Positions 2,592 to 29,112 of a DNA stretch of 64,000 nucleotides are shown here, piece by piece. Source of the stretch: Eledone cirrhosa (lineage: Eukaryota > Mollusca > Cephalopoda > Octopoda > Eledonidae); the NCBI GenBank assembly GCA_964016885.1, contig OZ024742.1, positions 114,277,939 to 114,341,938 on the forward strand, read 5' to 3'. Below the pieces are notes generated by a model. The model had not been told where the DNA came from, ran no database searches, and saw only the letters and a program-made list of their open reading frames with translations. Numbering within the stretch: position 1 is the first letter of the stretch; every line of letters begins with the position of its first letter. The translations under genes and the position numbers were made by a program.

Positions 2592-2636
2592 AACGATGTA
2601 CTAGTTTCAAGCTTGTTAGCTATCATCAGCACCGTT
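2592..2636 (-). ncRNA. Hammerhead ribozyme, F2 copy 1
   Basis: Type I layout on the minus strand: stem I AACGGTG (2636-2630), core CTGATGA (2629-2623), stem II AGCT/AGCT inside an outer T-T pair (2622-2609), GAAA (2608-2605), stem III ACTAGT (palindromic), H17 = A (2599), closing stem I CATCGTT (2598-2592), seven pairs with one G-U. Identical in sequence to the copy at 3,342-3,386. The loopless palindromic stem III suggests cleavage as a dimer, as proposed for PLE and retrozyme hammerheads. Confidence 0.85.
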
Positions 2637-3341
2637 TACCCATCTGCCAGATAGTTGAACGTTCCAAAGTATATACTTTCCTTATGAAAATTAACGGCTG
2701 AGCAGCTTAATTTGCATATTGAGTGAGTTAAATCGGTCAGGCATACCGAAAACGATAAGTTGAAAAAAATGAAAACGAAATTTCATTTCTCACTCTTAGT
2801 ATGGCACTTACTTAAATGTAAGTATGTATGTATACGTTCATACATATATGTATACAGACGTACAGTAGCATGCATATATATATATATATATATATATATA
2901 TATATACATACATATACACATATGCATACGTGGTTGCCTTAACACCGTATGGCATACATTCAGGCTGTTCGATTTGTTGACAAACAAACGAACAAAGCAG
3001 GCGTTATAATAAACGTCTGCTAAACTGATGCGTGCATATGTGTATGTGTACCTGTATGCATATGTGTATATGTATGTATATATATATATATATATATATA
3101 TATATGCATGCTACTGTACGTCTGTATACATATATGTATGAACGTATACATACATACTTACATTTAAGTAAGTGCCATACTAGGAGTGAGAAATGAAATT
3201 TCGTTTTCATTTTTTCAACTTATCGTTTTCGGTATGCCTGACCGATTTAACTCACTCAATATGCAAATTAGGCTGCTCAGCCGTTAATTTTCATAAGGAA
3301 AGTATATACTTTCGAACGTTCAACTATCTGGCAGATGGGTA

Positions 3342-3386
3342 AACGGTGCTGATGATAGCTAACAAGCTTGAAACTAGTACATCGTT
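3342..3386 (+). ncRNA. Hammerhead ribozyme, F2 copy 2
   Basis: Stem I AACGGTG (3342-3348), CTGATGA (3349-3355), stem II 3356-3369, GAAA (3370-3373), CTAG, U16.1 at 3378, H17 at 3379, closing stem I CATCGTT (3380-3386). All invariant core positions are present. Predicted cleavage is between 3,379 and 3,380. Confidence 0.85.
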
Positions 3387-3701
3387 CCTGTGTCAGTGTT
3401 GAACAAAAAGGTGACGTGGTTGCCTTAACACCGTATGGCATAAATTCAGGCTGTTCGATTTGTTGACAAACAAACGAACAAAGCAGGCGTTATAATAAAC
3501 GTCGGCTAAACTGATGCGTGCATATGTGTATGTATACCTGTATGCATATGTGTATATGTATGTATATATATATATATATATATATATGCATGCTACTGTA
3601 CGTCTGTATACATATATGTATGAACGTATACATACATACTTACATTTAAGTAAGTGCCATACTAAGAGTGAGAAATGAAATTCCGTTTTCATTTTTTTCA
3701 A

Positions 3702-3806
3702 CATATATATATATATATATATATATATATATATATATATATATATATATATATATATATATATATATATATGTATACATATATATATATATATATATAT
3801 ATATTA
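3702..3806. repeat. (TA)n microsatellite
   Basis: About 100 bp of TA repeats at the right border of the F2 cluster. Confidence 0.95.
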
Positions 3807-3829
3807 TATATAAGGGTCATAAAATTAAA

Positions 3830-26298: not shown

Positions 26299-27457
26299 TC
26301 GGGGACTGCGATGGGTACTTAATCATGGGATACTTGGAAGTCCAGATATATGAACAGTGCAAATGAAAATACGGATTGAACTTCCACAAATATTTATCAG
26401 AGAATTGGAACCGCTACTTGGACAATTGTCTCATAATTTGGTCCCACACACTTGAAGAACTAAATGATTTCAAAATTGATTTAACGGCATCAATAACCAC
26501 ATCCAATTCACAATGTAATACAGCCAAGATCAACTCCCATTTCTGGACATCTTAATCTTAAAAAAAGACACAAATATCGAAACTGACATACACTACAAAC
26601 CAACAGATTCCAAACAATACCTGCTATTCACCTCCAATCATCCAAAGCACACGAAGACGAACATTCCTTTTCACCTATCAAGAAGAATTTGCACAATTGT
26701 CTCCAATTATGAAAAGCGAAATAAAAGACTTCGAGAATTGAAGGAAATTCTACTGGAAAGACAGTACCCACCATTAATAATAAATAATGGAATAGAAAGG
26801 GCTAAAGCAATAGGCATTGATGAATTACGAAAACAGAAACAAATTCAAGGTACGTCCAATATTCTCTCATATAACTCAACACACAACCGAAGACATGCTG
26901 ACATTATTCACAAGAACATCCCACTATTGAAACAAGACCCAAGAATGAAAAAAACCCTTGAAACACAAAATAATCAAAAGCAAAAGACAACCGAAATCAC
27001 TAAAAATATTACTCACCAATGCTAAATTACCTATCACAAATCCACAACCAACTGTCCAAAAATGTGGTCGCTCTAATTGTGGAACCTGCACTCACCTCAT
27101 TGAAGGCATCACATATACATTTCAATCAGGACAAAATGTTGCTGTAAAAACTCACTTCACTTGTTGATAAAAACATCTAGTTTATGTCATTAAATGTAAA
27201 AAATGCATTAATATTATATAGGACAAATTAAACTCCCACTCAGAAACAGAATGACAGTTCATCGCCAACACTTACGAGATCCAATCACGAGACAGATACC
27301 ACTAAGTGCCCTTCTAGACATATGTGCAAGTAATAAGACACCCACATTCCAAGGCTTCCCATTTTACCTTTGCGCTGACAATACAACAGAACAAATACGA
27401 ATGAATAAGGAAAATATGTTTATTCAAAAAGATGGACCTGCATTAAATATAGTTTAA
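26299..27457 (+). pseudogene. Penelope-like element: RT C-terminus and GIY-YIG
   Basis: It starts at the RT region GTAMGT, then MGYLE and KYGLNFHKYL. The catalytic box reads RYLDNCLIIW at 26,412-26,441, so the second Asp of YLDD is Asn. After a frameshift near 26,540: PFLDILILKKD, HYKPTDSKQYLLF, HPKHTKTNIPFHLSRRI. A linker open at 26,738-27,025 follows. Next come a Cys motif CGRSNCGTCTHL (27,061 onward), GIY-YIG residues LVYVIKCKKC and IYIGQ, and a C-terminal TVHRQHLRDP, NKENMFIQ. At least three frameshifts or stops are present. It is 5'-truncated exactly at (TA)n and lacks the N-terminal RT fingers. Confidence 0.9.
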
Positions 27458-28515
27458 TATACATTATGTCAACACCATAACATGCTAACCATCCAAAGAG
27501 ACACATGCATACACACACACGTAACACCTACTTTACAAAATAAAAGCCAGAACTAAATAAACCTGAACATACGTTAATACTTTAACACCTTAACATGCTA
27601 ACCCCACACCCCACGCACACATGACTCCCTCCCCCATTTCTACTAAAGGAATCATGTTCCTACACACACACAAAAATATATATATTCCCTCCATCTTAAC
27701 ATGCTAACCTACCCCAACACACACATAACACCCATACACACACACACCTCCCTCCCACATCTCTACTAATAAAAGCATCTTCCTACACACATATACGCAC
27801 ACACACACACACAAGGACACAAATAAACATACATATCTCTACTTTCTTTATCTCAATAGAAACTCTGAATTCTGACAAACCAGCGAACCAGCCATATTCA
27901 CTGAACCAGAACAATTCTCCCCATCCCATTTCTCTGACCATTATCTTTTCTTTGGCACAACATTCTCTAAAAGGCTACAAAATAAATTCCCAAATACGGG
28001 GGCGAAAATTTAATTAACTTGTTCACGTGACAGTCATAATTTCATTTATAATCCATCAAATTTACATTTTTTTTTTAAATCCTTCATGGGCCACTTTTTT
28101 AAAGTAAAAAGAAATTCAAACAAACTGGCGCGAAAGCTGATGTGCGTATTCGCGTGACTGCATCAACCAACCAAATTTCACTCATGTATGAAGAAACAAC
28201 CTGAGCCCACACACGCCACCCGTCCCATTTGTTTGAAGAAATGTGTAACGTGAACTGGCGCGAAATTTATTATACTTATTCACCAACGAATCAAATTACT
28301 TCTCTAAAAACCTGGCATTTCGATCCAATTTTTTCCATATAAAACAAGTAACGTTCAAAGAACAACCAGATGTGAGAAAAACCACAGACACTCCATCTCA
28401 AATCTATTTTTGAAAAGCAGGAGAACTGCGAAACCGGTAAAGGAACCAAATAAATATATATATTTAAAAAAAAAGACTCCAATTGCATTTTCGATTTCAT
28501 CTTTTTTCCTTATAT
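27458..28515. other. PLE downstream region, non-coding
   Basis: CA- and C-rich DNA (27,470-27,830), then three degenerate segments each with GGCGCGAAA or GGGGCGAAA and CGTGAC (about 28,000, 28,125 and 28,255), suggesting a decayed tandem repeat. No gene recognised. Confidence 0.5.
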
Positions 28516-28791
28516 ATATATATATAAAAGGTAAAGAATGAAACGAAATTTCATTTCACACTCTTAGTACGGCTGATAACTAAATATAAGTATGTATACG
28601 TACATACATAAATATGTACAGACGTACAGTAGTATGTATATATATACATACATGCACACGTATATATATGTACGTATGGGTTTAGCGAACATTTATTATA
28701 ATGCTCGGTTTGTTTGTAAAGAAACAACCCGAATTACGCCGTACAGTGCTCGCCAACCATCGTTGCCCTTTTGTTCAACACTGACACAGGA

Positions 28792-28826
28792 ACGATGTAT
28801 TAGTTATTAGCTATCGTCAGCATCGT
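28792..28826 (-). ncRNA. Defective hammerhead, F2
   Basis: Stem I ACGATG/CATCGT is perfect and the core CTGACGA is present (28,820-28,814). A deletion removed the GAAA box and half of stem II. Confidence 0.55.
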
Positions 28827-29069
28827 ATAGCTTTCTGTCAGATGATTGAACGTTTGAAATTATATACTTTCCTTGTGCATATTAACGGCTGAGAAGCCTA
28901 ATTTGCATACAGAGTAAGAAGCGAAAGTTCGTTTCTTTCTTTTCCACTTATCGTCCTCGATACGGTCGGCCGACTAACTCATTCGATATGCAAATTAGGC
29001 TGCTCAGCCGTTAATATGCATGAGGAAAGTACATGCTTTCACAGGTTCAATCATCTGACATAAAGGTAT

Positions 29070-29112
29070 ACGATGCTGACGATTGCTAATAAGCTTGAAA
29101 CTAGTACATCGT
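29070..29112 (+). ncRNA. Hammerhead ribozyme, F2
   Basis: Stem I ACGATG (29070-29075) with CATCGT (29107-29112), six Watson-Crick pairs. Core CTGACGA (29076-29082). Stem II GC/GC flanked by weaker pairs. GAAA (29097-29100). ACTAGT stem III. H17 = A 29106. Confidence 0.78.

Follow-up and report, generated by a model that had tools for sequence, protein, structure and literature searches.

Hammerhead-bearing F2 repeats of Eledone cirrhosa as probable retrozyme-like derivatives of Penelope-like elements

Hammerhead motifs and repeat units of the F2 family

We analysed a stretch of 64,000 nucleotides from the octopod Eledone cirrhosa (contig OZ024742.1, positions 114,277,939 to 114,341,938; called the window here, at its full length) for the F2 repeats, a family that carries hammerhead ribozyme motifs, and for their relation to Penelope-like elements (PLEs). 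The core CTGANGA-N14-GAAACTAGT gave five exact matches and one match with a single mismatch in the window, and none in 100 shuffles. An initial annotation of this DNA had placed five F2 copies in it, and all five motifs were found where it had put them, with CTGANGA, GAAA and T-H at fixed spacing and with the stem I pairings that it had given, G.U pairs being counted in. The conserved core (CUGANGA, GAAA and U-H), together with an open stem I, identifies them as type I hammerheads. As a count of motifs the five copies stand, but the motifs at 2592 (minus) and 3342 (plus) belong to opposite arms of a single divergent insertion, so that the window holds only four insertions. These are listed below; unit positions (u) are numbered from the cleavage site, and sites 1 and 2 are the two places at which outer 3' ends fall, as described further on.

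2320..2929, minus: insertion 1, minus arm, whose outer 3' end falls at site 1 (A3 u288; unit mapping)
2592..2636, minus: type I hammerhead, family A3, in one arm of insertion 1 (core pattern)
2928..3706, plus: insertion 1, plus arm, whose outer 3' end falls at site 2 (A3 u346), then (AT)n (unit mapping)
3342..3386, plus: type I hammerhead, same sequence as the copy at 2592, in the other arm of insertion 1 (core pattern)
16287..16714, minus: insertion 2, a single-direction B unit, 99% identical to B, 3' end at site 1, then (TA)n
16513..16557, minus: type I hammerhead, family B (core pattern; Rfam HH9 below threshold at 16497-16568)
24329..24404, minus: minus arm of insertion 3, 3' end close to site 2 (u269)
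24403..25082, plus: insertion 3, plus arm, whose 3' end falls at site 1 (u219)
24817..24861, plus: type I hammerhead, family A, with T.T topping stem II (core pattern)
28524..28915, minus: insertion 4, minus arm, whose 3' end falls at site 2 (u275), hammerhead GAAA deleted
28911..29762, plus: insertion 4, plus arm, whose 3' end falls at site 1 (u219)
29070..29112, plus: type I hammerhead, family A, stem II pair 2 being T.T (core pattern)
29500..29544, plus: sixth hammerhead copy, absent from the initial annotation, its core broken by GAAA to GGAA (match at 29507-29536)

The units of the F2 families measured 422, 478 and 502 bp in the A types, 466-467 bp in B and C, and 310 bp in E. Units of A, B and C could be aligned over their whole length, A and B being 64% identical; E was about 47-48% identical to A and B, which is no better than loosely related. 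Their GC content was 34.5-38.2%, and they contained no frame for a reverse transcriptase with a GIY-YIG endonuclease, so that F2 units are not autonomous PLEs. Arrays ranged from one unit to at least 27 consecutive B motifs, and a six-copy minus array (L079) included five identical 310-bp units. Folded as circles and compared with 40 shuffles each, the units gave the better folds, with z scores of -9.5 (A), -8.0 (A3), -11.1 (B), -8.5 (C) and -3.3 (E). At 31821-32747 the window also has E-like repeats, tandem and inverted and about 320 bp long, which are old and show no recognisable hammerhead core.

Covariation and the palindromic stem III

The core with a 6-20-base spacer occurred 26,756 times in the 2.98-Gb genome (1,582 contigs), compared with 25 occurrences of the reversed pattern, and a 16-base piece of the motif was found 19,418 times. 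The initial annotation had claimed compensatory change in the stems and had proposed an alignment of genomic copies as a check. We built such an alignment from 40 non-redundant motifs, using 30 copies of 113 nt, and scored a structure consisting of stem I, stem II, stem III as a palindrome, and two outer helices that lengthen stem I. Loci with foreign or deleted flanks were left out (L002, L012, L015, L018, L024:1235, L040, L041, L044 and L079), as was L008 for near identity, and L011 and L049 were retained despite a foreign outer flank. The loci were a non-random choice, taken mostly from the first 100 listed matches on contig C1 and favouring places with neighbouring matches; in a separate motif set, 96 of 99 motifs passed a stem-pairing filter.

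Both sides had changed in 16 of the 27 pairs across the 30 copies (shuffle mean 7.1), and none of 500 shuffles reached as high, showing that the genomic copies are more compensated than shuffled ones and bearing out the claim. Paired cells amounted to 87.3%, versus 79.5% in shuffled alignments and 28-40% with slid partners, these cells being counts over related sequences and not a probability. The two outer helices on stem I also covaried, and the motif is thus longer than had been annotated. Stems I and II were kept paired through compensatory change, with the exception of the pair adjacent to the core. In the stem II change from AGCT/AGCT to GATGT/ACATC, which had been offered as an example, GATGT/ACATC belongs to a diverged subfamily, and stem II of the AGCT-type window copies is weaker than was claimed. 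A cleaner compensatory change is the swap between B and C units, which are 96.8% identical (451/466) and in which stem II pair 2 is A-T versus T-A.

Each unit carries a single hammerhead, in which a normal stem I, lengthened by the outer helices, is combined with a short stem II. Stem III of the F2 motif is a six-nucleotide palindrome without a loop, and a stem of this kind must be made by two hammerheads pairing with each other; if two copies do form it, the letters in its centre have to be self-complementary. We surveyed stem III with GAAAC-NN-GT-type patterns, in which the T-first alternatives and the patterns with other first bases also required H. The TAGT form accounted for the 26,756 occurrences given above, the other three GAAACTNGT forms jointly for 441 (control 79), and forms with a first base other than T for 12,378 (control 333). 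The middle was self-complementary (GC, AT or CG) in 96 of 100 listed non-T places and not so in four, many of these places being non-independent tandem copies. The idea of dimeric cleavage, which the initial annotation had drawn from the loopless ACTAGT, thereby gained support: the palindrome is kept although its letters vary (ACTAGT, ACGCGT, ACATGT), and this varying palindrome is strong evidence, at the level of sequence, that F2 hammerheads would act as dimers. When two copies of the 16513 (minus) motif were co-folded, all three helices of a dimeric hammerhead were predicted, and the result for 24817 (plus) was similar.

The single-strand prediction by RNAalifold spoke against such a fold, as it put a competing helix through the core and dropped the outer helices; a dimer cannot be expressed in that representation. 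Altered stem III letters were also seen to recur regularly within higher-order repeats: ACTCGT alternates with ACTAGT along the array at C1:14044536-14051131, ACTTGT recurs about every 2,817 bp at C1:95667270-95680916, and ACTGGT is present in six successive units at C2:78934837-78936979. In the L009 array, unit lengths alternate between 422 and 424, as a dimeric template might give, with few variable positions.

Array ends and Penelope-like elements

To map the ends, we aligned 48 loci and the window to one observed family-A unit, counting its positions from the cleavage site, and used pieces of at least 150 nt with at least 85% identity. Outer 3' ends of family A lay at u219 (site 1) in 20 of 53 cases and at u275 (site 2) in 16, so that 36 of the 53 fell exactly at either position, while the 53 5' ends were scattered over 43 positions. 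The sole 5' end at u1 (L010) was a split alignment, the array continuing to u338, and the absence of a pile-up of 5' ends at u1 would not be expected if cleaved linear monomers were the template. Opposite-strand neighbours within 60 bp formed 27 divergent and no convergent junctions in family A. At 17 of these 27 junctions, the two outer ends were divided between site 1 (u210-220) and site 2 (u263-275), two of the 17 (both in L023) looking like duplicates of their neighbours; in no case was the same site used twice, and in the 10 others (L013, L024, L026, L029, L031, L041, L042, L044, L045 and L047) at least one end fell off both sites, so that they were not fully scorable.

The other families behaved similarly. 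Insertion 1, mapped on the A3 unit, had one end at each site, and B and C loci ended at homologous places, with two of eight C rows ending elsewhere or in masked sequence. Among nine divergent arrays sampled from family E (a set that includes L079 and L036), seven had both ends resolved; five ended exactly at u139 and u165, the arrays at L082 and L092/L093 had ends near these positions, and two of the nine could not have both ends placed owing to masking or to the array running on. The hammerhead variant was identical in both arms in all nine E arrays, which would have a probability of about 1e-5 if arms were drawn randomly from those nine. The stretch between sites 1 and 2 was predicted to form a strong hairpin in A and B units. 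Flanks were mostly (TA)n, arm joins often overlapped by 1-6 bases, and target site duplications (TSDs) outside (TA)n, longer than 4 bp, were seen at two loci only (9 bp in L019 and 15 bp at L092/L093). If the repeats were plain satellite or foldback sequence, spreading at the DNA level with a fossil hammerhead aboard, this would account for the inverted arms and for the higher-order repeats within B-type arrays, but covariation and palindromes are kept across families, the 3' ends are fixed while the 5' ends scatter, and the arms end at different sites, unlike those of a plain DNA inversion. We give this explanation hardly any credence.

PLE copies have inverted ends. They also occur as tandem or partial-tandem copies, as the PLEs of this genome and the F2 repeats do. 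In the accessible part of PMC11167929, PLE reverse transcription is described as beginning inside the RNA at two sites, the stretch between them being the genomic 'tail', and two internal start sites with a tail are said to be unique to PLEs; targets are AT-rich, and both strands are cut and extended. Judged against that account, F2 arrays have two internal 3' end sites, and their ends match the tail so described. F2 repeats might instead be metazoan retrozymes moved by a long interspersed nuclear element (LINE), since LINEs or PLEs are named as possible helpers (PMC7229834, as far as its text was available) and the window contains LINE-like frames with RVT_1 and Exo_endo_phos matches. However, two internal start sites and outward 3' ends fit the PLE description in PMC11167929 and the PLE-like copies of this genome, and we regard movement by a LINE as very improbable.

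PLE-type proteins are abundant in E. cirrhosa, with 15,858 and 19,709 first-look candidates for two fragments, 150 of each being scored. One locus, L095, has an open frame of 849 amino acids with a minimal hammerhead behind it, and we call it PLE-like because BLASTP aligns its protein (E 3e-14) with the reverse transcriptase/GIY-YIG protein of a second locus, L094, in which GIY-YIG is above and RVT_1 just below the cut-off. The predicted cleavage site of L095 lies 171 nt from site 1; its plus arm is tail-less, ending in ACAATAT followed by (TA)n, and its minus arm runs 60 nt further. A related copy is present in the window.

111..1454, both strands: divergent end pieces of a hammerhead-bearing PLE-like element, with cores that start at 308 (minus) and 1203 (plus) and a GIY-YIG piece at 487-792

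Its minus arm ends at site 1 (111) and its plus arm at site 2 (about 1454), the reverse of L095. In both copies checked, this one hammerhead-bearing PLE-like family thus follows the same end rule as the F2 arrays, and its nine opposite-strand pairs within about 11 kb (150 scored copies, judged by eye) were all divergent. F2 units are laid out like this element, in which site 1 follows the hammerhead after 171 nt and site 2 comes at the end of a 60-nt tail. This likeness would fit F2 units being not elements of their own but terminal fragments (pseudo-long terminal repeats with hammerhead and tail) of one or more 5'-truncated autonomous PLE families. Arrays of many units of equal length without an open reading frame (ORF) (27 B motifs; identical 310-bp E units) speak against such an origin, as does the lack of an F2 match in L094-L096, which are only three PLE loci, and we consider it unlikely.

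Other PLE sequences were seen nearby. Another hammerhead-bearing PLE-like end copy, at about 17525 (minus), matches 1320-1595 inversely. A search for protein homologues with a GIY-YIG fragment returned none at E <= 1e-10. The 775-amino-acid PLE represented by L094 was rejected as a partner, as it carries a deviating motif in place of a classical hammerhead and uses the same end site on both sides. A fragment of this family lies at 26317-28526 (87% to L094 over part), and at 28410 (plus) it carries the hammerhead-like motif TTGAAAA...GAAACCGGTA, with the core off at two positions and ACCGGT as its stem III palindrome.

A model of F2 propagation and related observations

Several known systems resemble the F2 repeats (sources are cited from their available parts). 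Like the metazoan non-LTR retrozymes of coral, mussel and axolotl (PMC7229834), they consist of short, tandem, ORF-less units of low GC content with a type I hammerhead, TSDs of more than 4 bp and self-paired unit circles, the circles being predicted here. Unlike those retrozymes as that text describes them, F2 repeats form divergent arrays in (TA)n with one fixed 3' site per end, some units exceed 450 bp, and stem III is a bare six-nucleotide palindrome. Minimal PLE hammerheads, for which cleavage as dimers has been proposed (Cervera and de la Pena 2014; Lunse 2017, via PMC7761336 and PMC6155905), likewise are type I, have a reduced or absent stem III and occur in tandem copies, whereas F2 units lack a PLE frame, and their stem I is extended and covaries. 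The Poseidon PLE of Anolis, PAc (PMC11167929), resembles F2 in having a hammerhead upstream of two internal reverse transcription start sites that bound a tail and in its AT-rich targets, at which both strands are cut and extended; unlike F2, PAc is autonomous, and the accessible text reports no strand difference in start site, whereas F2 arrays have one site per end.

We conclude that F2 repeats are probably non-autonomous, retrozyme-like derivatives of PLEs, copied by a PLE protein from circular or multimeric RNA. According to this model, tandem F2 units would be transcribed and cut by paired hammerheads to unit-length RNA, which a host ligase may close into circles, as published for retrozymes (PMC7229834, in the portion available). 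A PLE reverse transcriptase/GIY-YIG endonuclease would then open a (TA)-rich target, and copying would start at two fixed points inside the RNA, with site 1 used on one flank of the break and site 2 on the opposite flank. Both complementary DNAs would span one or more units, and joining of their free ends would give a divergent array with its 3' ends outward. Circles and multimeric linear RNA fit these data alike. A more specific version, which we put forward tentatively and hold to be somewhat doubtful, is that a single circular hammerhead RNA serves the PLE enzyme as template for copying from both sites at once, with site 1 on one flank of a (TA)n break and site 2 on the other, and that the enzyme goes round the circle several times; the product would be a divergent rolling-circle array in which one end has a tail and the other has none. 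If this were true, retrozymes and PLEs would share one replication cycle, and PLE integration would follow a two-primer rule.

A number of results weigh against the proposal that F2 repeats are PLE-copied retrozymes, and those on the ribozyme itself come first. An Rfam scan of the window, the covariance-model check suggested at the outset, went halfway towards the refuting outcome named with it, the lack of a hit. It returned nothing at threshold; one of the five copies (16497-16568, minus) did match Hammerhead_HH9 (RF02275) below it, at 36.5 bits for a threshold of 52 (E 1.4e-5), when the scan was run at E <= 10. The other window copies were absent among the matches listed (150 of 251), the scan at that level being swamped by microRNA models that match TA repeats. 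Copies of B and C elsewhere aligned to the whole HH9 model at 35-38.6 bits (E 1e-6 to 1.5e-5), also under the threshold of 52, and no hammerhead match at E <= 0.01 was obtained in the loci tried from A (L011), D (L049) and E (L036, L082 and L087); agreement with a curated covariance model is limited to sub-threshold HH9 matches in B and C. Co-folding favoured other pairings in three of the five window copies (2592 minus, 3342 plus and 29070 plus). The core-adjacent stem II pair (columns 51-64) was non-standard in 26 of the 30 aligned copies; family A and the four AGCT-type window copies have U.U there. A basal U.U pair in helix II is reported as well for the axolotl HHR_Amex2, which needs dimers (PMC7229834, from its accessible text). 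In subfamily D (L049, C1:15349755), stem II is CAGCT/AGCTG or CAGCT/AGCTA, which gives C-G or C.A where family A has U.U.

The remaining points concern the arrays and the link to PLEs. Repeats of five to six units inside B-type arrays suggest that duplication at the DNA level takes place as well. In an arm test, from which the two L023 duplicates, L026 and L029 were excluded and in which six of 54 possible comparisons had too few positions, the sibling arm was the nearest in only 18 of 48 comparisons. Among young insertions, sibling arms were clear in L011 (0.000 to the sibling, 0.039 to the nearest other arm), in L082 (0.003 and 0.041) and in insertion 1 of the window at 2320-3706 (0.009 and 0.035; that is, arms 0.9% apart with the nearest other arm in the set at 3.5% or more), and ambiguous or contrary in the remaining insertions; sibling arms as a general proof of a single template were thus not borne out. 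The GIY-YIG match of the L095 protein was below threshold (21.2 versus 22.6 bits), and the protein had no Pfam reverse transcriptase match. The three PLE loci fetched (L094-L096) contained no match to an F2 unit, and the 775-amino-acid PLE at L094 and the PLE at L019 use the same end site on both sides, so that the rule of one site per end holds in two of the four PLE copies examined.

Retrozymes with hammerheads, the minimal hammerheads of PLEs, cleavage by dimers and the PLE tail were already known. Three things appear to be new: how large and diverse the F2 family is, the use of a varying palindrome as evidence of dimers, and a rule of one site per end that the hammerhead repeats share with a hammerhead-bearing PLE-like element; in the literature searched, with subscription papers outside it, we found no report of cephalopod retrozymes or of such a rule. 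The helper enzyme of animal hammerhead retrozymes has been left open, with PLEs called a 'strong candidate' (PMC7229834, in its available part). The F2 repeats, with tens of thousands of motifs and with a PLE-linked end structure in the sampled loci, bear on this question, and the rule of one site per end allows PLE integration to be tested with genome data.

The window contains further features. LINE-like frames lie at 51543-54122 (Exo_endo_phos and RVT_1 matches), with similar ones at 57423-59377, one of which has no Pfam match. A second hammerhead-like family is present in two foldback elements, at 33937 (minus) and 36209 (plus) and at 9030 (minus) and 9215 (plus), with a long stem II, a stem I of ATTTTAT/ATAAAAT or ATTTTGT/ATGAAAT, and the stem III palindromes AUGCGCAU and AUAUAUAU. 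In co-folding, the 9030/9215 element gave a different pairing, and the 33937/36209 element formed a predicted dimer stem III of 8 bp.

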